From Dehalogenimonas sp. WBC-2 (GTDB lineage Bacteria > Chloroflexota > Dehalococcoidia > Dehalococcoidales > Dehalococcoidaceae), in assembly GCA_001005265.1 (NCBI GenBank), contig CP011392.1:124001-188000 (forward strand): 64,000 nucleotides of DNA. The letters are read 5' to 3'. Within the stretch, counting starts at the first letter, position 1. Every line of letters begins with the position of its first letter. The position numbers were made by a program, and so were the translations under genes. Shown here in pieces: positions 4,372-59,197 of this stretch. Below the pieces are notes generated by a model, which was not told where the DNA came from, did no database searches, and worked only from the letters and a program-made list of their open reading frames with translations.

Positions 4372-4414
4372 AACGTCACAAGGCGTTCTGTACAGGGTAA
4401 GTTAATTGAAACAT

Positions 4415-4450
4415 AGCAAAAGGCCCGCTCAATTGAGCGGGCCTTTTGCT
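4415..4450. terminator. Bidirectional terminator, 18-bp perfect inverted repeat
   Basis: AGCAAAAGGCCCGCTCAA (4415-4432) is perfectly complementary to 4433-4450. The GC core is flanked by A- and T-runs, so it can terminate both the NifU-like gene and the converging aspartate kinase gene. Confidence 0.9.
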
Positions 4451-4463
4451 ATCCCGGTATGAG

Positions 4464-32093: not shown

Positions 32094-32668
32094 GTACTTT
32101 TTACGTAATTTTTATTGAGATAGCCTACTGTAAAAAAAATAATTCACATTTTTCTTCCCAGTGTGAATCTGGTTGTGCTTCGTCAGTTCAAACAAACTGC
32201 GCTGGGCCAATTTTTTTGCCTACACGTTCAGTTTCGCTTGGAACGCTGTTTGTCAGAACTATTTGGAGTGGACATCGATTGAAACCTCTAGTATCCGTCA
32301 TCTTTTTCCTCAGGGATATCCCATTGCCGCATTGCAATCCTTAATCTCATTGCTAAGCACGAAATTATCCATCTAATACCTAGCAACCCTTTCACTTTCG
32401 GTAACCACTGCAATTTACGATTAGATACTTAATGTACCTGGGTGCGACTTATCACTGTTAATGAACAAACTGAATGTCTTGTAGCTAAATAATATTACTA
32501 AAGTACTACCGTTACTGGTTGGGTATCGCCCTACATAGTTGAATATGCAGGGCGATTTTGATTCTAAAAGAGAAAAGACGCATTAGTTCAACCTTGCTCA
32601 AGAGCTTTGAAACAGCTCTTTTTGGCTAATTAAGGTGTCTGAAAATTTTAATTACTTTTAATGAATCG
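32094..32668. other. AT-rich intergenic region before the phosphate locus
   Basis: No convincing gene. The open frame at 32173-32376 has no ribosome-binding site. A hairpin ATCGCCCT (32525-32532) / AGGGCGAT (32549-32556) followed by TTTT could terminate plus-strand transcription arriving from upstream and insulate the phosphate promoter. Confidence 0.5.
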
Positions 32669-32718
32669 TTAAAGAGGATTTCATGACGTCTTAACACTCC
32701 CTTAAAGTTGGGCTGTTA
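32669..32718 (+). promoter_or_regulatory. Pho-box-like array: five hexamers at exact 11-bp spacing
   Basis: TTAAAG (32669), TTCATG (32680), TTAACA (32691), TTAAAG (32702) and CTGTTA (32713), each separated by 5 bp. PhoP/PhoB proteins bind direct TT(A/C)A(A/C)A-type repeats with this 11-bp helical phase. A TATTAT -10 candidate at 32717-32722 overlaps the last repeat, putting the start of transcription near 32729. The downstream operon is a Pst-type phosphate transporter, which supports phosphate control. Confidence 0.7.
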
Positions 32719-32730
32719 TTATAGGTATTA

Positions 32731-32809
32731 GTGACGACGAAAGTACTGGTGCGGAAATGCCGAAGGAAGTCAGATAAGAGACCGCCGTCACCTTCACAGA
32801 CTTCCTTCG
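32731..32809 (+). ncRNA. Predicted H-type pseudoknot in the leader of the phosphate operon
   Basis: Strand order A1-B1-A2-B2. GTGACG (32731-32736) pairs with CGTCAC (32786-32791), extended by GCGG (32751-32754) with CCGC (32782-32785). CGAAGGAAGTC (32761-32771), lying inside that stem, is perfectly complementary to GACTTCCTTCG (32799-32809) outside it. The structure begins where transcription is expected to start. I match it to no known riboswitch class. Confidence 0.55.
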
Positions 32810-32975
32810 TGCTCAGGTCGAACCCAAGCTTCTTATTGTAACCAGTCGCCACTTACTCGTCAATTACGCTTGGGGTTGCACTGTGTACCGAGGAGGAAAA
32901 ACAAAAAAGAAAAACGAGGTAACAGACTGAGGCAGTTACATCAACCACAAGTAAAGAAAAACGAGGAGATTAAAA

Positions 32976-34514
32976 GTGAATCTATCAAAAGGAAAGAGAA
33001 TAGCCTCCGTTGCTCTGGCTTTGGGCGCCATCGCAGTGACATTAGTCCCGGTCAGCGCAGCCAACACGCCGATTGACCAGGCTGTTAGCCCGGGCATCGG
33101 CCGGTTGAATCACCTAACATTCCAAGGATCTACCACTGTAGGCCCCATCATCCAGCAGGCTGCTGCCGCGTACAATACGGCGCGCGGCTCTACCATCATC
33201 TTGGACGATGGTAACAATATTGTTCAAAAGGGTTCCGGCTACGGCCAGAACGCGATGACCCTCGGTACCGGCGATGGTGCGGCCTTGGGCCACATCGCAA
33301 CCGATATTGGCATGTCTTCCGGCGTGGTAAACGCCACCACTTTTCCTGACGTCAAACCCATCGCTATCGCCCGCGACGGCATGGTAGCCGCCGCCAATGA
33401 GACCGGCGCCGCTTGGGTCGGTCACGAGATCCTCAACATCACCATTGGCCAACTCGACGACATCTACGAAGGCCGCGTCCACAACTGGAACCAGATCATC
33501 GATCCTGTGACCGGCAAGACCGGTCCTGACATGGTCATCGTGCCCCGGGCTCGCAACATCGGTTCGGGCACACGAGCCTCCTGGAAGGATTCTGTAGCCG
33601 GCACCTTCAACCCCGCCGATGTTGATCCCACTGTTGGCGGAGCCCAGGAATACAACGAGAACTGGGTCATCGTCAACTGGGGTCTCAACGCCCGTCTCGG
33701 TACCCAGGTTGAAATGCAGAATGTCCTCAACGGCGCTACAGCTTCCGGCCAGATTGGCTATGTCGGCCTGGGCTTCGGCAAGGATGCCACCCATCCCAAC
33801 ATCACCGATCTCAACATTGTCAAGAATACTTTGATCAAAAACGGCACCGGCACTTTCACCGCTCTAACTAACGCTGGAGACAATGTAAAGGGTTCTCAAC
33901 TGAATGAAGGTGCTAATACCGTTACCGTGACTACCGCTGGCACCTTTGTTATCACTACCCCGGCCGGTTGCACCGGCACAGTGGCTGCCGGGACTGGCAC
34001 CACTATCACTGGTGGTGCTACTCTAGCCGCCAGTAGCACTAACACGGTCACCGTCGCCGGTACCGGCACCATTATCGTTACTTTGAACTACACCCTCGGT
34101 TATGCTCCAACGTCAATCAATATCTACACCGGCGTTTACCCCTTCGCCCGCTTCCTGTGGCTGTTGACTAACACCGACGCGATCTCCGGAACAACAACCT
34201 TCGCCAACTACGATCCCGCTAGCCATGATGGCATCAAGGACTTCATCAACTGGATGCGCCAGGTCGATGGCGCCGGCCAGCAGGCTGTCGTCGATACCGG
34301 GTTCTTACGTCTCGTCGCTGCCCAGGATGTCGATAGCAACGGCGGCGTTAACGTCCTGGACCTCATATCCGTCGGCAACAAAGTCGGCGCTGCCAGCAAC
34401 CTAGGCCGCGCTGATGTTGACCACAATGGTTCGGTCAACGTCCTTGACCTGATCGCCGTTGGTAACTGGGTTGGAGCCGCGATAGTCGCTGACCCGACCA
34501 CCCCACTCCCTTAG
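32976..34514 (+). CDS. Secreted PstS-like phosphate-binding protein with C-terminal type-I dockerin
   Basis: 512 residues, GTG start with GAGGAG 7 bp upstream. Signal peptide for signal peptidase I (cut near VSAAN, about residue 30) with no lipobox. PstS-type fold: FQGSTTVGP (about 48-56) and RARNIGSGTRASW (about 190-202) are the phosphate-loop motifs. A Thr/Gly-rich segment (about 305-375) interrupts the fold. The end (about 452-502) has two dockerin F-hand repeats, DVDSNGGVNVLD and DVDHNGSVNVLD, each a calcium loop. Codons are strongly C-ending, which suggests high expression. First gene of the operon. Confidence 0.88.
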   Translation: MNLSKGKRIASVALALGAIAVTLVPVSAANTPIDQAVSPGIGRLNHLTFQGSTTVGPIIQQAAAAYNTARGSTIILDDGNNIVQKGSGYGQNAMTLGTGDGAALGHIATDIGMSSGVVNATTFPDVKPIAIARDGMVAAANETGAAWVGHEILNITIGQLDDIYEGRVHNWNQIIDPVTGKTGPDMVIVPRARNIGSGTRASWKDSVAGTFNPADVDPTVGGAQEYNENWVIVNWGLNARLGTQVEMQNVLNGATASGQIGYVGLGFGKDATHPNITDLNIVKNTLIKNGTGTFTALTNAGDNVKGSQLNEGANTVTVTTAGTFVITTPAGCTGTVAAGTGTTITGGATLAASSTNTVTVAGTGTIIVTLNYTLGYAPTSINIYTGVYPFARFLWLLTNTDAISGTTTFANYDPASHDGIKDFINWMRQVDGAGQQAVVDTGFLRLVAAQDVDSNGGVNVLDLISVGNKVGAASNLGRADVDHNGSVNVLDLIAVGNWVGAAIVADPTTPLP

Positions 34515-34568
34515 TATCGAACAATCAATAGCAACAGCAATCCAAAAAATAAAACTGAGGAGAATCAA

Positions 34569-35957
34569 TTGAATTCATCAATCTTAAAGAAAGGCCTCAG
34601 CGGACTGGTTGCCATTAGCATCCTGACCGCCTCCCTTGTGGCCGCCATCCCGTTGGCCGCCGCCAACGCCAATGCCATCACCATAGAGAGTAAATCCGTT
34701 GACAATGGCAACACGTTCGATGTGCACGTGAGCGTCACCGCCGACAATGCCTCCGGCGGCCAGGCCAAGATAACCTTCGACGCCTCCATGTTCACCCTCA
34801 ACAGCGCTACCTACAACACCACTCCCAAGTTCTTCGGCACCGGCGAGTTCGATGTCGAAGCGGTCATCGACAACACTGCCGGCACCGTTCTCCTGACCTC
34901 CACCAACGGCGGCGGCACTAAACCGCCGGTTACCGGTACTGGCGTCTGGGCCACCCTCAACTTCACCGCCAAGGTAGCCGCTGCTAACAGCGTCCAGACC
35001 CTTGGCTTTGTTGCCGTCGAGTCTTTCATGGCTGATAGTGTTCCTGCCGCCATGCCCACCGACATGAATACCGGTTCAATCATCATCGGCAACCCGCCCA
35101 CCCCTGACTTCACCGTCAGTAACATAACTAAGACTATCGTCCACACAGGCGCGGATGCCTCCACCGACCCGACCACCTACACCGTTTCCTTTGACGTCAA
35201 CAACATTGGCAATGATGATGCTCCCGCCTCTATTGCCACCATTGACGTTGACGGTGTCACCGTCAATGTCGCCATTGACGCCATCGCCCATGGTGCTTCT
35301 TTCTCCGCCACCAGTTCCGAGATTACTCTGACCGGCGCCAAGGACAACTTCACCATCACCGCCGACGGAAACAGCGTAATCGCCGAATCCAACGAGTCGA
35401 ACAACTCAACCTCCGATTCATTCACCTTCCTTTACCCTGTGGCTGGTGTTCTTCATGAGACTGCTATTGATGGTTACATCAGCGGCAGTCTGGAATTCAC
35501 CGTGCCCGCTTCTGTTGATTTCGGCGCCATGAGCCTCGGCAACAACAACTACTCCGGTATACTGAACGTCAAGACCAATGATGACTGGCAGGTAAACATC
35601 AAGTCTGACGCCGATACCAATGGTTTCATGACCAAATGGGATGGCTCTGTATATGCTACGAACATTCAACTGCACAATGCCATGGTCATTACCACCACCG
35701 GTGGTAATGTTCCCGGCGAAACAGGATACGTTGCATCTCCCGGTCAGGTTACCCCTGAAAACAATATCGTCACTCTGACCGACACCGAGCAGATCCTTGC
35801 CAAGGGCAACACTGATGGCCAGGTAACTTCTATTGATGGTCTGAGCACCCAGGGTGAAGACCGTGGCCTCAGCTACGACCAGTTGGTAGTGGCTTCAGAC
35901 GCCGCTGCTACCTACCACATCGTTGTTTCCTTCATCGCCACCAATATCGTCAACTAA
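34569..35957 (+). CDS. Secreted cohesin-domain protein with CARDB-like domain
   Basis: 462 residues, TTG start (34569) with GAGGAG 6 bp upstream. Signal peptide ending near AAANANA (about residue 37). Cohesin domain about 38-172 (TFDVHVSVTADNASGGQAKITFD start, GTGVWATLNFTA end). Then a CARDB-like Ig domain (about 178-285; SNITKTIVH, NNIGNDDAPA, ESNESNNS), and a C-terminal beta domain (about 300-460) that I do not recognise. No membrane anchor or lipobox. C-rich codon use like the previous gene. Natural partner for the dockerin of the PstS-like protein. Confidence 0.85.
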   Translation: MNSSILKKGLSGLVAISILTASLVAAIPLAAANANAITIESKSVDNGNTFDVHVSVTADNASGGQAKITFDASMFTLNSATYNTTPKFFGTGEFDVEAVIDNTAGTVLLTSTNGGGTKPPVTGTGVWATLNFTAKVAAANSVQTLGFVAVESFMADSVPAAMPTDMNTGSIIIGNPPTPDFTVSNITKTIVHTGADASTDPTTYTVSFDVNNIGNDDAPASIATIDVDGVTVNVAIDAIAHGASFSATSSEITLTGAKDNFTITADGNSVIAESNESNNSTSDSFTFLYPVAGVLHETAIDGYISGSLEFTVPASVDFGAMSLGNNNYSGILNVKTNDDWQVNIKSDADTNGFMTKWDGSVYATNIQLHNAMVITTTGGNVPGETGYVASPGQVTPENNIVTLTDTEQILAKGNTDGQVTSIDGLSTQGEDRGLSYDQLVVASDAAATYHIVVSFIATNIVN

Positions 35958-35973
35958 TCATCGCGTGGAGAAA

Positions 35974-36005
35974 CGCCCGGGAGCGGATTTCACCGCTCCC
36001 GGGCG
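35974..36005 (+). promoter_or_regulatory. Very stable intercistronic hairpin, no U-tract
   Basis: CGCCCGGGAGCGG (35974-35986), loop ATTTCA, CCGCTCCCGGGCG (35993-36005): 13 bp without mismatch, 16 bp after the cohesin gene stop. The following bases are TCAAGGAAAAAG, not a U-run, so it is more likely an mRNA-stabilising or processing structure or a partial terminator than a full terminator. Confidence 0.7.
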
Positions 36006-36045
36006 TCAAGGAAAAAGACAGTTGGAATGCCGGAGTGAGAGACAG

Positions 36046-38181
36046 ATGAAAAAATACCTGATTGGCACCTTGATTTTATTGACAGCAATTGTTGGGTTAA
36101 TACCGGCAATTTCAGCGGTCGCACAGAATAGCATCAGCATACAAGTCTCACCGAGCGAGATCGTTCAAGATTCGGTAACCGCCGGTCAGAGCAAGCAATA
36201 CACCCTATCAGTGGACACCGCTTTTCCGCTGGTGCTGGAAGTTGCAGGGTTGGGGCAGTCATTAGATGGAGCCAGCCAGGTGCTTGCGGCGGCGCAAGAC
36301 ATATTGACCCAATCATGTAGCAGTTGGATTACCTTGGATAAGTCTATCCTTAATCCCGGTAGCGAACAGGATGTTAAAGCGACGTTAAATGTTCCGGCCA
36401 ATGCCCAGCCTGGAGAATATTATGCTTCCCTTTATTTTCATACCCAGCCTAACACCGACAACGGCACCGCGATTATCACCGGTGTCTTGGTGCCATTAAT
36501 TGTCGATGTCAATACCTCTTCTTTCACCCCGACCATCGATATTCATATGAACTCGCTGGACATCTCCAATGCTTACGTTGGCAAGAACATCAAAATTATT
36601 ACTACAGCAACTAATATTGGAAACGTGATGTTCCGGAATGCCAGGGTAACTACGGCTGTAAAAAACAGTAGCGGGCAAATTATCTGGGAAGAGACTTCAG
36701 ACATATCCGGTTCAACGTTATTTCCGAATTATCCCCGAAGGGTTGTTTCCACTTTTTCAGGAATCGGCTTAACCCCGGGAAACTATACTGCCATCTCAAC
36801 TGTTAAGACTGAAGATGGCGAACCTATCGGAGCAACATTGACCAAGGATTTCCAAGTCAGTCAACCTCCGGCAATACCTGGCATTCCAACATTGACAGGG
36901 CCTGGCGAAAGTACAGTCCCTGGACCAGTGATAAACACACTGTCGCCAACTTTGAGTTGGTCAAGTGTCAGTGGAGCAGACAGCTATAATCTCGTGATTA
37001 GAAGTGAACCTTATAACGGTACTGATAAGGTATTTGAATATCCAGGGGTTACCGGAACATCGCTTACTGTGCCTGCGGGTAAATTACTCAGTGGTGCCAA
37101 ATATGTATGGGAGCTTACTGCGGTCAACGTCGGGGGTGAAAGCGCCGCCGCAAAAATGTATTTCCAAACACCGGCGACAGTAAGTACTACTTTGACGACG
37201 GGCGGAGTGACAAACATAACTTCCACAAGTGCCACGCTGACAGGCACCTTGACCTCTAAGGGCGGGTTCAGCCAGGTAGATGTCAGTTTTCAATACGGTA
37301 TCAGTAATTCTGTGCTAAATTCCTCTTCTCCTATTATCAATCGAACCAGTCCAGGACCTTTTTCAGCAGTCTTGAACGAGTTGTCGCCGGACACAATCTA
37401 CTATTACAGGGCAAAGGTGCAGGGCTCGACCGGTGAACCGGTGTATGGTAGTACCCTATCATTCCGGACTCAAACCGTGCCTCCGCCTACTTCAACACAA
37501 CCATCCAATACTCCTCTGAAAGACTACTTCTTACCTCTTATCGATGAATCCAGCCTGACCTCAGCCGATGGCACATATCTGAATGCTTTGGATAAATCGG
37601 GGTGCGAGGTATCAGTCACCGGTGCTTCCGGGAATATCAAAATTATTGCAGGCCGTTACCTCAATGAGCCACAGGCTGCGGTGGCTTTTTCAACGGGTCT
37701 AGTCGACGGGGGAACGGGCAAGTCCGGCATTAAGTGGGTAGGTGTCCGGATTGACGGTACAAATTCGGGTATGGCGCGAGTTACCCTGCATTATTCAGAT
37801 ACCGAAGTAAAAGACTACGATCTTGCGAGCCTGTTCTTAGCTTATCTTAACGGTGGTTCATGGCGGAGGGCAACCAATACCACCGTATCGGCGACAAATC
37901 ATACTATCTCTGCGGATATTCCCGTTGTCAGGCTGACTGGAACAGTTATCGGTATGGGAGGCACTACCTCAAAGAAGACTTCGGCTGTGATACCCGTGGG
38001 TCCTATAGGTGACAATCCTACGCAGAATCCGCCTGCGGTAGTAGGAATGCCGTGGTCTATGGTCGGTATCATTGTCGGCACCATTTTTATTGTCGGCGTT
38101 GTTGTCATCGTAATTGAGTTGAACCGCAGAAAACGCATTGTCGGGAACCAGGACTTTGAAGCTCCGTACAATCGCGAATAA
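36046..38181 (+). CDS. Membrane-anchored surface protein with DUF916-like and Fn3 domains
   Basis: 711 residues from the ATG at 36046, chosen for the signal peptide that begins MKKYLIG and a GGAG upstream. About residues 28-285 form two Ig-like beta domains resembling the WxL-associated DUF916 family (SPSEIVQDSVTAGQ; YYASLYFHTQP; TNIGNVMFRNARV). Two Fn3-like domains follow (about 305-500), then a Pro/Thr linker, a further beta domain (about 510-640), a transmembrane helix (about 667-690) and a positively charged short tail. Probably a stalk next to the cohesin proteins. Confidence 0.75.
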   Translation: MKKYLIGTLILLTAIVGLIPAISAVAQNSISIQVSPSEIVQDSVTAGQSKQYTLSVDTAFPLVLEVAGLGQSLDGASQVLAAAQDILTQSCSSWITLDKSILNPGSEQDVKATLNVPANAQPGEYYASLYFHTQPNTDNGTAIITGVLVPLIVDVNTSSFTPTIDIHMNSLDISNAYVGKNIKIITTATNIGNVMFRNARVTTAVKNSSGQIIWEETSDISGSTLFPNYPRRVVSTFSGIGLTPGNYTAISTVKTEDGEPIGATLTKDFQVSQPPAIPGIPTLTGPGESTVPGPVINTLSPTLSWSSVSGADSYNLVIRSEPYNGTDKVFEYPGVTGTSLTVPAGKLLSGAKYVWELTAVNVGGESAAAKMYFQTPATVSTTLTTGGVTNITSTSATLTGTLTSKGGFSQVDVSFQYGISNSVLNSSSPIINRTSPGPFSAVLNELSPDTIYYYRAKVQGSTGEPVYGSTLSFRTQTVPPPTSTQPSNTPLKDYFLPLIDESSLTSADGTYLNALDKSGCEVSVTGASGNIKIIAGRYLNEPQAAVAFSTGLVDGGTGKSGIKWVGVRIDGTNSGMARVTLHYSDTEVKDYDLASLFLAYLNGGSWRRATNTTVSATNHTISADIPVVRLTGTVIGMGGTTSKKTSAVIPVGPIGDNPTQNPPAVVGMPWSMVGIIVGTIFIVGVVVIVIELNRRKRIVGNQDFEAPYNRE

Positions 38182-38193
38182 CAAAGGATCGAT

Positions 38194-40680
38194 ATGAGAA
38201 GAACTCTAATGCCAACAACAGATCTGAGAACCAAGGGTTTATCCCTGGTTTTTGGAACTGTATTGTTGCTTACGCAATTAGTAACAGGATCAATCCACGT
38301 CAGTGCCGCGGTTTGTAGCGTAAGCGCCGTGCCTTCTATTACCACCGTAGCCCCAGGCGGCAGTTTCGACGTGGCCATCAAAGTATCCAGCGATACTCCG
38401 ACTTCTGGTGGCCAATTCAAATTGAATTGGGACACAACAAAAGTTCAGTGCACTTCAGCTGAAAAAGGGACATTTTTTGTACCATCAGGGGTACAGGGAA
38501 CCGTGTATTGGTCGCCAGACGACCCCGTAATCGACAACACCGTTGGCCGTTTTCCTGATCAGCCTCAAGAAACAGTTTCCAACCCCCAGGCCGTGGCGCT
38601 TTTCGGATTTCCCGCTGGTTTCGGGCCTACAGGCACGGGTGATTTTTATATTCTGCATATGACAGTAAAATCAGATGCCAGTGGAACCTGTAATTTCACC
38701 CTGTCGGATGTCTTCTTGGGTGGTCTCACCAATACCGATAATATTACTCCCGATCTTCATCCCGAAGTTGTCAATGGCAGTATAACCATTGGGGTTCCGC
38801 AACCCACTGTGGATACCAGCGCTCCCAGCGCCATTGCCAGCACAACTATGACGCTAAATGGCAACCTGACATCACTGGGCAGCGGTAACAGCGCCCAGGT
38901 GAGTTTCGAATGGGGGATTTCGACATCGTATGGCAGCTCGACCACCGCCGAAACCAAAACGGCCATCGGGGCCTTCACCGCTGGCATAACCGGCCTTACC
39001 GCAGACACCGAGTACCATTACCATGCCAAAGCTGTGGTGGGGGACACACCGTACTATGGGGCTGACCAGACGTTCCGAACCACAGTCACAGGCACGACGG
39101 CGCCGGGAGTCACCACCAGCGCCGCTTCAACGGTGGCCAACGTTTCGGCTAAGCTGAACGGCAACCTGACTTCGTTAGGCGGCAATGGTAGCGTCTCGGT
39201 CAATTTTGAATACGGTACGACCTCAACCTACGGCACCACGACAAACGCCCAAGCGATGACCGCTGTAGGAGCATTCAGTTTCAACATCGTCGGATTGACC
39301 GAAAACACGACCTACCATTACCGGGCCACGGCGACTGTCGGGTCAACCGTGGCGGTTGGCCCCGATATGACCTTTACTACCCAGCCAGTTATAACCCCCT
39401 TGGGGGTAACAACGGCCGCGGCTAACACCATTACACAGACTGGCACCAAGCTAAATGGTAACCTAACTTCACTTTCCAGTGATGTGATGGTATCGGTTAG
39501 TTTTGAGTATGGAACCTCTACAAATTACGGAAGCTCTACAACTACCCAATCTAGAACCGCAATCGGAGTATTCAATGCCACTCTCTCGGGCTTGACTCCA
39601 GGCACTACCTATCACTTCAGGTCTAAAGCTGTTGGCAGCACTACGGTATACGGCAATGACGCGGTATTTACCACCTCTCCCTCGGCTACGACTCCAAGTA
39701 CGCAAGATGGTGGAACTATAATAATCGTGGGAGGTGGCGAACCACAAATTCTTGACATTTCGGGAGTTATCAATAGCGGTGGAGTCTTCCAAGAAGATTT
39801 CGTTATCGACTTGAAATACGGGACAGACTGGATCGGCATCATCATCAAGAAGGGTACTCGGGCGCTTGACGCTGATGGTCGGCCACTCACCTCAATTGGT
39901 GTTACGGCGCCAGTGTCTCTGGCCTCGCCACCGTCAAGTATAAGCCCTGTACTAGTATTCGAATTGAGCCCGAGCGGGGCGACGTTCAGCATGCCGCTAA
40001 CGTTTACATACCAGTTTGATACGAGGCAACTCCCTTCCGGCGCCAATGCCAGCGATTTGTATATGGCCTTTTATCAAGCTGGTCAAAATACCTGGCAAAT
40101 GGTCGACTATACATTGGATGCGGCTAACAATCGTATCATGGGCAATCTAAGCCATTTCAGCATGTACGCTGTCCTGGTAAATAGCAGTGTCGGCTTGCTG
40201 TCTGGCGGAAGCGGTTTTGGTTGGAATATAGCGGCGACTATTATCATATGCGAGTTGTTGGTAGGCGGTGTTGTAGTCTACCTCTTCAGCCGTCGACGGC
40301 AGCCGGTTCCAGCTATTGCAAGGGCACAGTACAGGTACCAGAGCCAAGCTGCCGCAGTTCCGCGGTCAATGCGAGCGATGGGTCGGCCGCCAGCGCAGAC
40401 AGAAGACAGGGAAACTGAGACGATTATCTGGGATGACTTGTTAAAAGGAAAGCAAGTCTCTAAGACGGCATTCAAAACCCACCTGGAGATCATAGGGGGC
40501 AAATTGGTTGTCCCGGCAGACAAGAACACCACCGATTTCGAAATCATCAGCACACCGGAGCAAAGGACCGTAATCTCTCTGGAGTTCGATCCTGAGACTA
40601 ATCCACGCGGCACGGCCAAAATCAAGGTACTAGGCACAGTTACAGAATACGAAAAATCGAAGGAGTTGAAGCATGAATAA
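38194..40680 (+). CDS. Membrane-spanning cohesin protein with three Fn3 repeats and cytoplasmic tail
   Basis: 828 residues. Signal peptide, cohesin domain (about 45-205; PGGSFDVAIKVSSD, GGQFKLNWDTTKV, GTGDFYILHMTV), three closely related Fn3 repeats (about 208-495, each with LNGNLTSL and a TxYHYRAKA end), and a beta domain (about 510-660). One transmembrane helix follows (about 672-695, then SRRRQ), and a cytoplasmic tail of about 130 residues with a DUF-like beta part (FKTHLEIIGGKLVVPADK). The tail could sense or couple to something inside. Its stop overlaps the next start (ATGAATAA). Confidence 0.82.
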   Translation: MRRTLMPTTDLRTKGLSLVFGTVLLLTQLVTGSIHVSAAVCSVSAVPSITTVAPGGSFDVAIKVSSDTPTSGGQFKLNWDTTKVQCTSAEKGTFFVPSGVQGTVYWSPDDPVIDNTVGRFPDQPQETVSNPQAVALFGFPAGFGPTGTGDFYILHMTVKSDASGTCNFTLSDVFLGGLTNTDNITPDLHPEVVNGSITIGVPQPTVDTSAPSAIASTTMTLNGNLTSLGSGNSAQVSFEWGISTSYGSSTTAETKTAIGAFTAGITGLTADTEYHYHAKAVVGDTPYYGADQTFRTTVTGTTAPGVTTSAASTVANVSAKLNGNLTSLGGNGSVSVNFEYGTTSTYGTTTNAQAMTAVGAFSFNIVGLTENTTYHYRATATVGSTVAVGPDMTFTTQPVITPLGVTTAAANTITQTGTKLNGNLTSLSSDVMVSVSFEYGTSTNYGSSTTTQSRTAIGVFNATLSGLTPGTTYHFRSKAVGSTTVYGNDAVFTTSPSATTPSTQDGGTIIIVGGGEPQILDISGVINSGGVFQEDFVIDLKYGTDWIGIIIKKGTRALDADGRPLTSIGVTAPVSLASPPSSISPVLVFELSPSGATFSMPLTFTYQFDTRQLPSGANASDLYMAFYQAGQNTWQMVDYTLDAANNRIMGNLSHFSMYAVLVNSSVGLLSGGSGFGWNIAATIIICELLVGGVVVYLFSRRRQPVPAIARAQYRYQSQAAAVPRSMRAMGRPPAQTEDRETETIIWDDLLKGKQVSKTAFKTHLEIIGGKLVVPADKNTTDFEIISTPEQRTVISLEFDPETNPRGTAKIKVLGTVTEYEKSKELKHE

Positions 40681-41357
40681 GTTTGGCATCGGGAAAAATT
40701 TAATAGTTATGTCCTGTATGGCGGGTACGTTGGTTCTGGCAGCGGCAGGATGTGGAGGTGGGGGGGGGCGATAATAGCAATATTATCCGCACAACCGACT
40801 CGGGATTTACGACGACAACACCACCTCCGCCAACTAAAACCACGGCACCTGCCACCGACAAAATAAGCGTCACTGCCGTACCATCAAAGATTACGGTGAA
40901 ACCTGGAGAAACGTTCGATGTATTTATCAGGGTGGTCAATGACCAGCAGTGCCGCGGCGTGTCCTTCACTCTGAATTGGGATACCAGCAAAGTGACATGC
41001 AACTCTGGGGAACCTGGCGCCTACCTGAAGGATTTCGCTTCAGCAAATAATGGCGATTTGTTCTATCTGCCTTCAAAAAATCCGGATGCTGACAATTCCG
41101 CTGGACAGTTTCCAAAGACAGTGGGCACTCAAAAGATGCTCCAAATAGTCATGACTGGGGCGATGACTCCCAATGGTATTTTCGTAGGACCCACTGGCAG
41201 TGGCGACATATATGTCCTGCATATGACGGCCAATTCCGGGGTTAGCGGTAACGTGACTTTCAGCTTGTCCAACGTAATTCTTGGGGATACCAGTCCTGAT
41301 ATCCCGAAAGATCTCAATGCCAAGGTGAACAACGGGCAAATCACGATATCGCCGTAA
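40673..41357 (+). CDS. Cohesin-domain lipoprotein, frameshifted by one base at a G9 tract
   Basis: The ATG at 40673 starts a perfect lipoprotein signal (MNKFGIGKN..., LVLAAAGC with Cys27 at 40751-40753). Four codons later the frame runs into TAA at 40772 because of nine consecutive G (40760-40768). With eight G the frame continues as CGGGGGDNSNIIRTT into a complete cohesin domain (about residues 65-225; PGETFDVFIRVVND, FTLNWDTSKV, GSGDIYVLHMTA). So the gene is OFF as sequenced, by phase variation, mutation or a sequencing error. A GTG at 40752 would give only an unanchored cytoplasmic product. The stop overlaps the next gene (TAATG). Confidence 0.75.
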
Positions 41358-41389
41358 TGTGCACAATCAACTCGATAGGCATTACAGAA

Positions 41390-42421
41390 ATGAAAGTTAA
41401 AATCAAAATCGTGACAATCCTTGTCCTGGCCCTCTTGCTGCCGCTATTCGGTTGCACAGTGCAGGGACAGAATGCGGAAGGAATACGGATTGGAGGAGCC
41501 GGAGACATGGCTTACCTGACGCTCCTATTAGATGAATGGGCAGCGAAAGACCCCAACGTGCCATTAGTAAGTATGTCCGTTTTAACAGATGGCATTACAG
41601 AGTTGAAACAAGGCAAATACGATGCCGTGTTGGTGGGCAGAGAACTGACGTCTGCCGAATTAGAGGGGATAACGGATTACATCATAGCATATGATGCTGT
41701 CTGCATCGTGGTGGATGAAAATACCTACCTTGGAGGATCGAAAGACAATATTTTCCTATCTCCGACTGGTGAACAGTATATCTATCCATCGGTCAAGTTC
41801 ACAGGGCTTAAAGGCTTGTCCACCGATGATGTGAAAAATATGTTTACAGGTGGTTTGCAGTGGACCGGCGAGTACTACGAAAGCAAACCTGGAATTGACC
41901 CCGGTAGCGTACTATGGCAGATAGAAGGTGGAAAATACGCTTGGGTGCAAACTCTCAGGCAGTTGTCATCCGCCTTTTCTTTCCAGGTCGGCAAATTCGA
42001 CACTCAGACAGTCCTTTTCCAAACACTCGGGCTGGATGAAAACCAGTTCATTTCCAAACTAAATGCGCTTTCCAGCACTCGGTACAAACTGGAGGAAGAA
42101 GTCATTTCATACGAGTACAGCAATTCGACCTATTCGCAGGAATATGGAATTCAAGACTTTTTATTCCACGTTGCATTCGCGTCAAGACGGGCAATGACCA
42201 TGGCTCCTCAGCATTCTCCGGTCAGGGTGCTGAGTATAGACGGAATCGACCCACTGACAAACCCAGCTTCAGTGTACGATGGCAGCTACCCATTCAGCCG
42301 CCAGATCCACCTGCTTGTGAAAAACGACGCACCGGCTAATGTCAAAGCGCTGGGCGAACTGCTAACCTCACTGGCCGGACAACAATTCATGGCGGACTCA
42401 GGGTACCTGCCGCTTCCATAA
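41390..42421 (+). CDS. Second PstS-like lipoprotein, lacking the usual phosphate-loop motifs
   Basis: 343 residues from the ATG at 41390, which begins the signal peptide (lipobox LPLFGC); an ATG at 41357 overlapping the previous stop is the alternative start. Overall PBP-like fold of the PstS group: GAGDMAYL at the N-terminal loop, DDVKNMFTGGLQW and the C-terminal YPFSRQIHLLVK / GQQFMADSGYLPLP. The GSGT phosphate-binding segment expected after the hinge is not found. It directly precedes pstC, so it could be an adaptor or bind another ligand. Confidence 0.8.
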   Translation: MKVKIKIVTILVLALLLPLFGCTVQGQNAEGIRIGGAGDMAYLTLLLDEWAAKDPNVPLVSMSVLTDGITELKQGKYDAVLVGRELTSAELEGITDYIIAYDAVCIVVDENTYLGGSKDNIFLSPTGEQYIYPSVKFTGLKGLSTDDVKNMFTGGLQWTGEYYESKPGIDPGSVLWQIEGGKYAWVQTLRQLSSAFSFQVGKFDTQTVLFQTLGLDENQFISKLNALSSTRYKLEEEVISYEYSNSTYSQEYGIQDFLFHVAFASRRAMTMAPQHSPVRVLSIDGIDPLTNPASVYDGSYPFSRQIHLLVKNDAPANVKALGELLTSLAGQQFMADSGYLPLP

Positions 42422-42448
42422 TAATTATTGCCAGGATCGGATAAGTTT

Positions 42449-43417
42449 TTGAAACATATAAAGAAAATGGTACCGAAAACCCTCTTTTTCATCTTGGCGA
42501 TGGTGCCTGTGATCGCCCTGATCCTGATTACAGTAAACCTCATTGCGGGCAGCATACTTGCTGTCGATTATCTTGGTTTTGGCCTGTTTAAAAATTCTTT
42601 CATCCCGAGTCCCGAATCTGCCAATGGATTAACACCCGATCAGATGAACTACGGCATTCTGCCGGCGTTGTGGGGGACGTTACTGGTTGTAGGCATTTCA
42701 GTTTCCATTGCCTTCCCGATTTCCCTGGCGCTGGCGGTACTCACTAACGAATATCTAAAAAGACCGTTCAATTCAATGCTTCGAGCGGTAATGGGCGTGT
42801 TATCCGGCATTCCCCCGATTATCTACGCCTTTATAGGTGGATCATTCTATCTATGGTTCCTTTGGCCAAAGCTTGCGGGCAAAGCACTTTCCGGGGCTGA
42901 CCTGCCAGCAGCCAATATGTTACCCACCGACCAGAGCGCCACCATTTTAGGTGCCATGATGTTGGCAATGCTCATAGTGCCGTTTCTCACTCCGCTTCTG
43001 GACGACGCGATTCACAACGTTCCGTCGACATTGAAGGAAGCTTCGTTGTCACTCGGTGCGGGGCAGTGGCATACCCTGCGCTCAGTGACCCTGCAGTTTG
43101 CAATGCCGGGCTTGTTGAATGCGCTATTACTAGGGATATTAACGGCACTGGGCGAAGCCATCATAGTATCATATACCATTGGATTTACGGCGAGTGCGTT
43201 GCCCCAACCAATTTTCGACCTCCTACAGCGAACACCGCCGTTCACTGCCACCATCGCTTACCTGACAGGTGGCGGTTTCTCCTTTGCGCAGCTGATCGGG
43301 CCGGTTGGCAAGTCAGTGGGGCATTTCATGGGACTGCTGCTCCTCATAGTGGCTTTTGTTATCCTAGGATTCACGACCTACATCCAGCACCGCATCGCCA
43401 AGAGGGTAACGCTATGA
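42449..43417 (+). CDS. pstC: Phosphate ABC transporter permease PstC
   Basis: About 322 residues from the TTG at 42449 (TTG at 42428 and ATG at 42467 are alternatives; AGGA lies 12 bp before 42449). Six-helix permease with the EAA-type loop (EASLSLGAGQWHTLRSVTL, about residues 195-213) that contacts PstB. Its stop overlaps the pstA start by 4 bp. Confidence 0.9.
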   Translation: MKHIKKMVPKTLFFILAMVPVIALILITVNLIAGSILAVDYLGFGLFKNSFIPSPESANGLTPDQMNYGILPALWGTLLVVGISVSIAFPISLALAVLTNEYLKRPFNSMLRAVMGVLSGIPPIIYAFIGGSFYLWFLWPKLAGKALSGADLPAANMLPTDQSATILGAMMLAMLIVPFLTPLLDDAIHNVPSTLKEASLSLGAGQWHTLRSVTLQFAMPGLLNALLLGILTALGEAIIVSYTIGFTASALPQPIFDLLQRTPPFTATIAYLTGGGFSFAQLIGPVGKSVGHFMGLLLLIVAFVILGFTTYIQHRIAKRVTL

Positions 43418-44799
43418 CGACTTCAATTGCCATAGCTAAAACGAGCTTGGAAGAAAAACGGGGAATAGACTTATTGGGCGGCACAACGGTCGGAAGCCTT
43501 CTCTTGGCAGCGGGGTCAGCGGTTGTCGGGGTCCTGATATTAGGAATAAATTCGCTCGAATATTTGGCCAGGCCGCTTCTAATAGCTAATGCCACCATTT
43601 TGGGCGTAATGTTTAGCTTGGCGTGGCGGAAAAAACTGACCAAATTCAGCCCACTTCTGCTGATCATTTTGATGACGATTCTGGCAGCTATCCTATTAAC
43701 TTTGATGCCTGAATACGTTCAAGGCTTAAACATCCATGGCATCATGCACCGCTCGCTGGCAGCGGGGCTATTCCTACTGGGGGCGGGAGTGTCGGGTGCA
43801 TGCTACTCGTTGTATTACATGTTCCGAGGGACGCCGAGGGGTTTTGACCTGTCGAGATATCCAATCATTATCTTTTTCGCAGTGGCGGCGTTTATGGCTT
43901 ACGGCATTATTTTTTTTGACATTATTCGCAATGGCGCTATCGATTTCAATGTACCTTTTTTCACAAATCATTTTTCCGACCAATTTGCCATCGTAGAACA
44001 ATGGCAAGACGGTTGGCCGGTGTTTACCAACCAACACCTGATACAGGTAGGTATCCTGAATCACATCATGGGCACACTGATGCTGATGAGCTTGACCTCG
44101 GTTATTGCAATCCCGATAGGGGTCAGCGTCGGTATTTTTGTGCATGAATATGGGAGATCCAAGCTGGGTGGAGTGATCAATTTTTCGACGACAGCGTTGC
44201 GTTCGATCTCAGGTGTCATCTTGGCAGTCACAGCGGTCAGTTTACTGCAAATCCCGGCCCAAGATAGTTTCTGGTTCAAGGTTTTTCATGGATACGGTTA
44301 CGATATCAACGGGGTGTTGCAAGTTGGCAGGAGTTCATTCCTGTTCGCCTCGGTCTTTATTTCGCTGTTGGTGATTCCAATCATCGCCAAGGCTACAATG
44401 GAGGGCTTGAACTCTTTGCCTAAAGACATTCGCGAAGGCTCCCTAGCATTGGGTGCGACTAAGGAACATACCCTTTTTCACGTTCAACTGCCTTGGACAC
44501 TGCCAAATATCATTACCGGTGTGGTACTCGGTTGTGCGGAAGCAGCGGGCGCCTTGACAATTATCTTCTTGATGTCAGGTACCGGACAATATGGTGTAAA
44601 CCCAATGAACGAGACTACTTCTCTGGCGTATCTCGTGTTCGATATGAAATACGGGCGGACGCTAGGAGATACGATTTCAAACTTAATGGGTAACGATAAA
44701 TACCTAGCAGCATTGGCACTCCTTATCATGACCCTGGTACTAACAACGACCGCCCTCATAATGAAACGACAACTATCGAAGAGGTATAAAGGCGGATGA
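43414..44799 (+). CDS. pstA: Phosphate ABC transporter permease PstA with long N-terminal membrane extension
   Basis: 461 residues from ATG 43414 (ATGA overlap with pstC). The last 260 residues are a normal PstA permease domain with the EAA loop REGSLALGATKEHTLFHVQLP. The first 200 residues add about five extra hydrophobic segments and are not part of ordinary PstA (about 290 residues). Extracytoplasmic loop near 165-195. The ATG chosen is the one overlapping the pstC stop; frames open further upstream are shadows. Confidence 0.88.
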   Translation: MTTSIAIAKTSLEEKRGIDLLGGTTVGSLLLAAGSAVVGVLILGINSLEYLARPLLIANATILGVMFSLAWRKKLTKFSPLLLIILMTILAAILLTLMPEYVQGLNIHGIMHRSLAAGLFLLGAGVSGACYSLYYMFRGTPRGFDLSRYPIIIFFAVAAFMAYGIIFFDIIRNGAIDFNVPFFTNHFSDQFAIVEQWQDGWPVFTNQHLIQVGILNHIMGTLMLMSLTSVIAIPIGVSVGIFVHEYGRSKLGGVINFSTTALRSISGVILAVTAVSLLQIPAQDSFWFKVFHGYGYDINGVLQVGRSSFLFASVFISLLVIPIIAKATMEGLNSLPKDIREGSLALGATKEHTLFHVQLPWTLPNIITGVVLGCAEAAGALTIIFLMSGTGQYGVNPMNETTSLAYLVFDMKYGRTLGDTISNLMGNDKYLAALALLIMTLVLTTTALIMKRQLSKRYKGG

Positions 44800-45593
44800 T
44801 CAATACTGAGACCATGACAAATACCCAGGATACCATACAAGAGGTTCGATCTCCTGGTGGATTGCAAATTCGAGAACTTGAAGTCTCGTACGGCAAAAAC
44901 AAAGTGATTAGGGGAATCGATCTGGAGTTTCATCCAGGCAAGATCACCGCAATCATTGGCCCTTCCGGTTGTGGAAAAACCACCATGCTGCGCACTTTAA
45001 ACCGCATGAGTGAATTAACCCCAGGCTGTAAAGTCAAAGGGCAAATATTGCTCGACGGTGAAGATGTTTTGCGGATGGACCCCATCTTACTGCGTCGTCG
45101 AGTAGGTATGGTTTTTCAAAGACCAAACCCTTTCCCCAAATCGATTAAGGAAAATCTGCTTTATGGCATCAAGGCCCAAAAGAAGAAAGTCGACAATAAT
45201 GCCACCATCAAGTCGTGCCTCGAGAAAGCGGCCTTGTGGGATGAATTGCACAACCGGTTGAATGATAATGCATGGGCATTGTCACTCGGCCAGCAGCAGC
45301 GTCTTTGTATTGCAAGGACCATGGCGATTTCACCAGAGGTTATTCTTTTAGACGAACCGGCGTCGTCGCTCGATCCAATCTCTACGGGGGCGCTTGAGGA
45401 AAGCATCATGGCTATGAGGGGCGAATACACCCTCGTCATCATCACTCATAACATGAACGAGGCTAAAAAGATCTCGGACTATACGGCTTTTCTTTATAAC
45501 GGGCAATTGCATGAGTACGGGGAAACCGAACAAATCTTCAATAACCCAAAACAACCGGTAACGAAACAGTATATCGCAGGAAAACTATATTGA
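44796..45593 (+). CDS. pstB: Phosphate ABC transporter ATP-binding protein PstB
   Basis: 265 residues. Walker A GPSGCGKTT (about residues 53-61), signature-like LSLGQQQRLCIAR, Walker B VILLDEPASSLDP, and the PstB-specific Q-loop region RVGMVFQRPNPFPKSI. Overlaps pstA by 4 bp. No phoU follows, unlike most pst operons. Confidence 0.93.
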   Translation: MINTETMTNTQDTIQEVRSPGGLQIRELEVSYGKNKVIRGIDLEFHPGKITAIIGPSGCGKTTMLRTLNRMSELTPGCKVKGQILLDGEDVLRMDPILLRRRVGMVFQRPNPFPKSIKENLLYGIKAQKKKVDNNATIKSCLEKAALWDELHNRLNDNAWALSLGQQQRLCIARTMAISPEVILLDEPASSLDPISTGALEESIMAMRGEYTLVIITHNMNEAKKISDYTAFLYNGQLHEYGETEQIFNNPKQPVTKQYIAGKLY

Positions 45594-57265: not shown

Positions 57266-58771
57266 CTACTTCTTATAACCGCCGTTGAATGACATGACTG
57301 TTGAATCATACCCAAGAGTCGGCAGATCCATATCCCACCATTTGTCGGAATCTTTGAGTCCGTAGCCAAATGGTTTGGCCATACTCCAGAACAGTCCATT
57401 GAATAAAGGTGTCGTAGCCAGGGTGGCTCTAATCACCTGGTGAGCCATGGCTCCGGAGTTCACATGGAAGGTACAGACGGGACGGCAGATCCTGCAGCCG
57501 TAAACGTTGCGATACATGACGCAGCAGTGTTGATCCGTCCAAAAGAGCTTTTTACCTGGATTGTTAAAGGTGTTGGGTTGCGGTCGGCCGAAGTTCGGTA
57601 CATCCCACGTCGGTTCTGAATCTTGTGAGATGGAGCCGGAAGGACAGGCATCGGCGCATTTGTGGCATGTATGGCAGAAGCGGAAGATACCGGCATCAAT
57701 CGGCCTGTCGGGAGCCAGCGGCATATCGGTAATTAGTGTCCAATATCCCATATTGGCACCGTATTCTGGATCGATGGCGGCATCGCTATGGCGGGCCATC
57801 TCAGCGATACCACCCATAACGGCACTGGATTCAGAAGGGACAAGCTGTCGGCCGCTCTCATCAGTACCGTAACCTATGTAGCCCAACCCGCGTAGAAAAT
57901 CCTGCAGGCATAATTTTACGGTATTGTAGTTGCGATATCGGCTTGTGTTCGCGGCAGATGCAATGCTGGAAGGCGCATCCGCCATGGCGGTTCGCCATGC
58001 GTCCTTATCCTGCGGAACCATAACGCTGACCTTCCAAAGTTCCTTATTCGGAATGTGGATGACCTTGCCATCATCATATCCGGGGTCTATATCTTCCATG
58101 ACCACCTGACGGCAATCCGTGAGAGGAGGGGGCCAGCTGTCGATGAACTTATCATTGCTGGCATTGCCCCGGAAGTACGTATAAACCAACTTCCGGGCAT
58201 CAGCGCTGGCAGTACCAAGTTCACTGATACCAATTCTGGCCGCTCCGAAGAAACTCGCAGCTGACCTCAGTATGCGGGTGTTTTCTTCCGGAGTGCCGGA
58301 CCACATCGGTAAGCCCACTTCCTCTGGGGTTTTAGCTGTTTTTTTCCCGGTAAAAGTTGATTCGGTGCCATAATCACCGTGGATGTTGGAGTTGGAGCCA
58401 GATGATAATGCAATATCCCTGAGGGTGCTGCCTTTTTGGCCAAGGTTCTTGTTCGCAACTTCGGTAGCTTTTGCCCTCATCGCCAACCAGGCGTCCTTGC
58501 CGACGTATTGGACGTTAACCCATGGTACCTGGGTCTGCATGCGGCAGTCATAGCGTTTCATCGCGGTCCAGTCAATCTCGACCGTCGGATGTTCCAATTC
58601 CAGTTTCTTGATCCACCATGGCCGTTTTACTTCGGCTGAATCGTCGGACATCATGTTATCCAGGTCAGTGAAAGCTGGAGCGGCCAACGCTGCTGCGCCG
58701 ACCCCTGCTCCGGCAATCCCTAAGTTTTTCATGAAATCTCTGCGTGATATTGTACTGTGAAATAATGCCAC
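57266..58771 (-). CDS. rdhA: Reductive dehalogenase catalytic subunit, no adjacent anchor gene
   Basis: 501 residues from GTG 58771, chosen because AGAGG lies 8 bp upstream and the protein then begins MALFHSTISRRDFMK, the usual RdhA Tat start; an in-frame GTG at 58816 adds 15 residues. Tat signal (about 1-35), N-terminal RPWWIKKLELEHPTVEIDW segment, corrinoid-binding core and two iron-sulfur motifs at about 385-460: CHTCHKCADACP and CCVMYRNVYGCRICRPVC. Uses cobamide and two 4Fe-4S clusters to reduce organohalides outside the membrane. No rdhB-like membrane anchor gene is present within 2 kb either side. Substrate unknown. Confidence 0.94.
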   Translation of the reverse strand: MALFHSTISRRDFMKNLGIAGAGVGAAALAAPAFTDLDNMMSDDSAEVKRPWWIKKLELEHPTVEIDWTAMKRYDCRMQTQVPWVNVQYVGKDAWLAMRAKATEVANKNLGQKGSTLRDIALSSGSNSNIHGDYGTESTFTGKKTAKTPEEVGLPMWSGTPEENTRILRSAASFFGAARIGISELGTASADARKLVYTYFRGNASNDKFIDSWPPPLTDCRQVVMEDIDPGYDDGKVIHIPNKELWKVSVMVPQDKDAWRTAMADAPSSIASAANTSRYRNYNTVKLCLQDFLRGLGYIGYGTDESGRQLVPSESSAVMGGIAEMARHSDAAIDPEYGANMGYWTLITDMPLAPDRPIDAGIFRFCHTCHKCADACPSGSISQDSEPTWDVPNFGRPQPNTFNNPGKKLFWTDQHCCVMYRNVYGCRICRPVCTFHVNSGAMAHQVIRATLATTPLFNGLFWSMAKPFGYGLKDSDKWWDMDLPTLGYDSTVMSFNGGYKK

Positions 58772-59197
58772 GTTTGTAACCTCTTTCTGTTGTTGTTTTC
58801 TTTCTGGGTACTTCACGGTCTACTCCCGCCGCCATCCGGTCTCTCCCGAATGCCAGATAGGATTTCAAACCTCCTTATTCCGGAAACTTGATAAAAGCTT
58901 CCCTCTATTGCCTAAATTATGGATGGTAAACCATGGTTTGACTTGATAAGCACGTACCATGGAAGATTATCTTTAGCAATATCCATAGGGCGCAATATAC
59001 TAACTTAAGTATATTTATACATCGTACCTTAGGATTAGTACTCATGCTGATTTATTTTTATTAATCTGTTATTGAGCACGGTGATTAACGAAAATAAATA
59101 CCAGTTACGAAATTCTCATTACCATAAGGGTTATTTTATCTAACTGATATTGAAAATAAGGCAAGATAAAACGGCTAATCTACCTAATTCGTTATTG
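58772..59197. promoter_or_regulatory. rdhA upstream region with inverted repeats and shared motif (copy 2)
   Basis: AT-rich leader of rdhA (read on the minus strand). CCATGGT (58931-58937) and ACCATGG (58956-58962) form an inverted repeat with 18-bp spacing. AATATACT (58994-59001) / AGTATATT (59008-59015) is a second. Directly beside it (59016-59041) is the motif TATACATCGTAC-CTTAGGATTAGTAC, also present upstream of the rdhA remnant at 32063. These are candidate operators for an rdh regulator that is not in this window. Confidence 0.55.

Follow-up and report, generated by a model that had tools for sequence, protein, structure and literature searches.

The stretch of DNA analysed here (the window, 64,000 nucleotides of Dehalogenimonas sp. 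WBC-2, genome G000) carries a phosphate transport locus at positions 32976–45593, in which Pst transporter genes are interspersed with genes for cohesin, dockerin and other surface proteins, presumably as a single operon. A homologous cluster is found in G050, a Dehalococcoidales metagenome-assembled genome from a family other than that of Dehalogenimonas WBC-2. The gene content suggests that Pst is linked here to a cohesin/dockerin system of non-cellulosomal type. The first-pass annotation of this DNA had proposed a pseudoknotted regulatory RNA controlling a phosphate locus, and the locus was correctly named: it is a pst operon that also encodes cohesin/dockerin surface proteins and is preceded by Pho-box-like repeats. 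The features are as follows, with the predicted helices labelled P1 (P1a and P1b), H1 and H2.

32647..32707, + strand: Pho-box-like operator, hexamers TTTAAT, TTAATG, TTAAAG, TTCATG, TTAACA and TTAAAG at exact 11-bp steps (pattern scan)
32713..32722, + strand: presumed -10 region CTGTTATTAT, following the hexamer array (sequence)
32731..32736, + strand: putative P1a 5' strand GTGACG (sequence; G050 match GGAAACG/CGTTTCC)
32751..32754, + strand: putative P1b 5' strand GCGG (sequence; GCCG in G050, one G-C to C-G change)
32761..32771, + strand: H1 5' strand CGAAGGAAGTC (sequence, folding, two-sided changes at three pairs over three copies)
32782..32791, + strand: putative P1b 3' strand CCGC (32782–32785) and P1a 3' strand CGTCAC (32786–32791), within the H1 loop (sequence, joint tests)
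32799..32809, + strand: H1 3' strand GACTTCCTTCG (sequence, two-sided changes)
32811..32825, + strand: conserved box GCTCAGGTCGAACCC, adjoining the 3' side of H1 (alignments)
32823..32874, + strand: putative H2, CCCAAGC (32823–32829) with GCTTGGG (32868–32874), the weakest helix (G050 CCCGAG/CTCGGG)
32976..34514, + strand: first gene past the leader, PstS-like phosphate-binding domain and dockerin repeats (PF12849)
34569..45593, + strand: remainder of the presumed operon, CARDB protein, two surface proteins, cohesin protein, second PstS, PstC, PstA and PstB (profile matches; G050 homologues)

Besides PF12849, the first gene matched PF00404 slightly below the cut-off and TIGR02136 below the cut-off. 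The PstA-like permease (43066–44799) is extended at its N-terminus by sequence that matches DUF6962. Since the first start listed for it overlaps PstC, the actual protein has fewer than 577 aa; the G050 homologue (483 aa) is extended too. A direct repeat, AAGAAAAACGAGG, occurs at 32905–32967, once at the pstS ribosome-binding site and once ~48 nt upstream. Elsewhere in the window, a long perfect inverted repeat between T runs (4413–4452) is probably a bidirectional terminator, the Rfam scores for a Thr/Leu leader at this position being weak and apparently spurious, and a reductive dehalogenase gene (PF13486) lies on the reverse strand at 57266–58816.

Pho regulon promoters are recognised by 11-bp direct repeats upstream of the -10 region, and six such repeats stand in register here; nowhere else in the 64 kb window do three or more TTNANR hexamers line up in this way. 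The array, which resembles PhoB/PhoP boxes, suggests PhoB/PhoP-type control of the operon. In the corresponding G050 leader only two hexamers scored, and the counterpart of the -10 region, CTGTTACTAT, follows that genome's own repeats. With a presumed -10 region after the six hexamers, a transcription start at ~32728–32731 is plausible for the window, just before the first predicted helix.

The complementarities claimed for P1 and H1 lie exactly where the first-pass annotation placed them and are more than chance. H1 comprises 11 perfect pairs and is the sole perfect 11-mer inverted repeat with a spacer >18 nt in the 64 kb window (spacers of 3–60 scanned), whilst P1 is in two parts, of 6 and 4 pairs, separated on the 5' side by a 14-nt bulge. 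The strands are interleaved (P1 5', H1 5', P1 3', H1 3'), which is an H-type topology. Folding of 32725–32815 gave -31.7 kcal/mol against a shuffle mean of -20.6 kcal/mol (z -3.29, better than 200/200 shuffles), an excess driven by H1; the signal is local, since z was only -1.42 over the whole 251-nt leader. A competing 5' hairpin (-8.4 kcal/mol) is predicted against P1, and a two-state switch between the two is at most conceivable. By itself the window sequence is only suggestive of P1, with 34/500 shuffles equally good (p 0.07), and the support for this helix comes from the homologous G050 leader rather than from the window alone. A further partial stem, proposed near 32824 and 32868, is present as H2 (strands AACCCAAGC at 32821–32829 and GCTTGGGGTT at 32868–32877), but one additional G on the 3' side limits it to seven contiguous pairs, CCCAAGC/GCUUGGG.

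A DNA search of 101 relatives returned a 32-nt match in G050 at 88% identity, with E 2.9e-4 for that genome, which would be weak if taken alone. This match falls, however, in the leader of a PstS-dockerin gene, at the head of a pstS-dockerin/cohesin/pstCAB operon and in the same place as in the window. Judged by their proteins the two operons are homologous, with identities of 65% for PstB, 38% for PstA, 35% for PstC, 33% for the second PstS (PstS2), 30% over 125 residues for PstS-dockerin and ~27–43% in parts of the surface proteins. Pairwise identity over the whole leader alignment was 57%, the mean-column figure being 76%. In the stretch that runs from H1 through the box, 43/60 positions agree (72%), including 27/31 from the H1 3' strand to AAGC, as do 25/60 (42%) past the box. 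Because identity drops beyond the box, the conserved core consists of H1 and the box, and sequence similarity gives H2 no backing in this comparison. In the G050 leader the counterpart of this P1 strand is 63 nt downstream of the corresponding -10 region and so is not 5'-terminal.

A covariance model built from these two leaders, searched against 156 genomes of the order, found a second copy in G050 that was not in the model (52.7 bits, E 5.5e-12). It lies downstream of the pst operon leader copy, in a 500-nt gap before a dockerin gene, hence the element is not confined to pstS. The two G050 copies are alike over 64 nt only (86%), from H1 through the box, and this common core stops before the P1 5' strand. 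Across the three copies the box after H1, GCUCAGGUCGAACCC, is nearly invariant; the longer form GCTCAGGTCGAACCC is identical in the G050 leader and reads GTTCAGGTCGAACC in the second copy. About 60 nt past the second copy begins a c-di-GMP-II riboswitch-like sequence (L035:1354-1437, reverse strand, G050 contig 17), which precedes the dockerin protein gene and scored 37 bits, below the gathering score of 53.5 (E 1.2e-5). An Rfam scan of the window leader detected no such aptamer.

The element is therefore represented by three copies in two genomes. A model built from all three was run on 39 relatives of the window genome, 39 of G050, 400 phylum genomes and 392 class genomes (overlapping sets, with strict filters for the large ones) and found no further credible copy; the element is absent from the other seven Dehalogenimonas genomes. 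Weak matches to one model (R2) in the phylum and class stood at the level to be expected from the number of genomes. Matches to the box pattern elsewhere in the order look like coding DNA with no H1, and a reversed control of the pattern matches about equally often. Among genome and viral contigs carrying the box pattern, the element was found on the G050 contig alone and other model scores were weak, the best viral match (L121) being coding-like DNA; a viral scan with H1 alone was uninformative, and plasmids and phages yielded no match to the element. Neither PstS-dockerin protein, used as a query at strict cut-offs, revealed a third PstS-dockerin locus, and we found no publication describing an RNA element at this locus.

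Compensatory changes, as expected in the stems of a conserved structured RNA, were observed in all three helices over two or three sequences; their numbers are small because the three copies come from two genomes. H1 shows three two-sided changes over the three copies (C-G/A-U, A-U/G-C and G-C/U-A), each G050 copy carrying a single mismatch. H2 shows one (CCCGAG/CTCGGG in the G050 leader), and its partner is displaced in the second G050 copy. Taken together, H1 and H2 had 94% of cells paired, with four pairs changed on both sides, a result equalled by 11/500 shuffles, and slid controls were 28–53% paired.

P1 pairs GUGACG/CGUCAC and GCGG/CCGC in the window, and GGAAACG/CGUUUCC and AGCCG/CGGCU in the G050 leader, with three compensatory changes between the two. 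Its geometry is common to both leaders: the two 3' strands adjoin each other within the H1 loop, and gaps of 14 and 16 nt separate the 5' strands. For the G050 leader alone p was 0.016. When both leaders were required to form P1 with this geometry, 1/1000 shuffles succeeded, as did 7/3000 trials with real segments for both leaders and 13/3000 with the window kept; without the geometry the count was 39/3000 (P 0.013). The probability of both leaders forming P1 by chance is about 0.001–0.002 with the geometry and 0.013 without, under tolerances that were partly post hoc, as the G050 pairing had been noticed by eye before testing. The second G050 copy lends P1 no support, with only an outer match that 118/500 shuffles equalled. 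In the G050 leader, the P1 arrangement has a first loop of 93 nt and a third of only 4 nt, and the H1 loop has an alternative 13 bp pairing, including G-U pairs, with a downstream GGAGGUGGGCCGC. The alignment of related leaders that the first-pass annotation had called for supports both stems of its H-type pseudoknot between the window and G050 leaders, in few sequences, but not P1 in the second copy. We consider a pseudoknot in the leader likely.

These results point to a credible new structured leader RNA of no catalogued family, whose regulatory role we infer from its position, conservation and promoter. The reading we prefer, and hold to be somewhat probable, is a conserved cis-acting structured leader that includes the pseudoknot. 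Transcription would start just before the element from the Pho-boxed promoter, the RNA would form the long hairpin H1, and the H1 loop would pair back to the 5' region through P1, whilst the box after H1 may be free or paired (in H2 or a local hairpin). Pseudoknot and box would then govern how well the pst/cohesin-dockerin mRNA is translated or how stable it is, acting through protein binding, small-molecule binding or structure alone. Control at the translation or stability step is itself a tentative guess; it is a better one than attenuation, since neither the window nor the G050 leader has an intrinsic terminator and H2 ends ~100 nt before the start codon.

It is possible, if rather doubtful, that H1 and the box function alone, for example as a protein-binding or processing site, and that P1 is coincidental. 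The core shared by the G050 copies ends short of the P1 5' strand, P1 is weak in the window by itself and unsupported in the second copy, and the G050 loop has other potential partners; set against this are the two-part geometry common to both leaders and the three compensatory changes in P1. A narrower form of the preferred reading, in which the pseudoknot is a small-molecule aptamer tied to phosphate status or surface life, seems unlikely to us. A conserved pseudoknot upstream of transport genes would suit a riboswitch, and the sub-threshold c-di-GMP-II-like aptamer makes the neighbouring G050 leader riboswitch-like, but no Rfam riboswitch matches, no terminator or start-proximal switch was found, phosphate would already be sensed by Pho-type promoter control, and only three copies are known.

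Conservation for reasons other than RNA folding, as a leader peptide, short coding sequence or DNA-level operator, is very unlikely. Open frames of 36 codons with a GTG start (window) and of 75 codons (G050) overlap the element, but the 5-nt difference in loop length shifts the frame between them, no start codon precedes 32870 in the window for the frame that both have past the loop, and the G050 copies differ at the three codon positions 5, 3 and 6 times, with no third-position excess; a 5 bp spacer change would also poorly suit a DNA dimer site. We regard as no more plausible, indeed slightly less so, a processive antitermination element of the LoaP/dfn or EAR kind, to which the structured leader ahead of ~12.6 kb of co-directional genes and the second copy before a later G050 gene would lend themselves, but each genome encodes one ordinary NusG and no specialised paralogue, and EAR, which is in Rfam, did not match. 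Functionless complementarity could be invoked for P1 in the window alone, where p reaches only 0.07, but it is hardly credible for the whole, as this reading is largely contradicted by the recurrence of H1 and the box, with compensatory changes, in a homologous leader from another family.

If the preferred reading is right, the element would represent an RNA family not yet catalogued and would place a further level of control, acting after initiation, on a phosphate operon of organohalide-respiring bacteria. It would also couple phosphate uptake to a surface system of cohesins and dockerins that is not a cellulosome; the c-di-GMP-II-like neighbour in G050 suggests a tie to cyclic di-GMP signalling. 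More speculatively, and in our view doubtfully, it may represent a new pseudoknotted RNA class restricted to a few Dehalococcoidia, sensing a ligand or protein after initiation on a Pho-type cohesin/dockerin phosphate operon, possibly in tandem with a c-di-GMP-II riboswitch.

Comparison with known RNAs agrees with the original statement that no riboswitch consensus is recognisable, as no relevant Rfam 15 match covered the element, whether in the window or in G050, even with permissive filters. Resemblances to cobalamin and glutamine riboswitches were unsupported by Rfam; the window shares a superficially similar string, GAAGTCAGATAAGAGACCGCC, with the cobalamin riboswitch, but there was no permissive-filter match and the string is not retained in G050. 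A boxA-like reading of the box fails, with only UGCUC shared. As with LoaP/dfn and EAR antitermination leaders, a hairpin element lies ahead of a long operon, but those systems differ in the NusG paralogue and the EAR match that are missing here. The H-type pseudoknot riboswitches (preQ1, SAM-II and c-di-GMP-II) are alike in their 5' leader position and interleaved stems, whereas the present element has a longer H1 and longer loops, matches none of them in Rfam and has no recognisable expression platform, neither a terminator nor a sequestered ribosome-binding site, the start codon being ~100 nt past H2; the c-di-GMP-II-like aptamer in G050 adjoins the element and is not part of it. In the window the element also resembles the 5'-terminal mRNA-stabilising structures of ompA-type leaders, being a stably folded region at or close to the start of a long mRNA, but it differs from these in its internal position in G050 and in its conserved loop and box.
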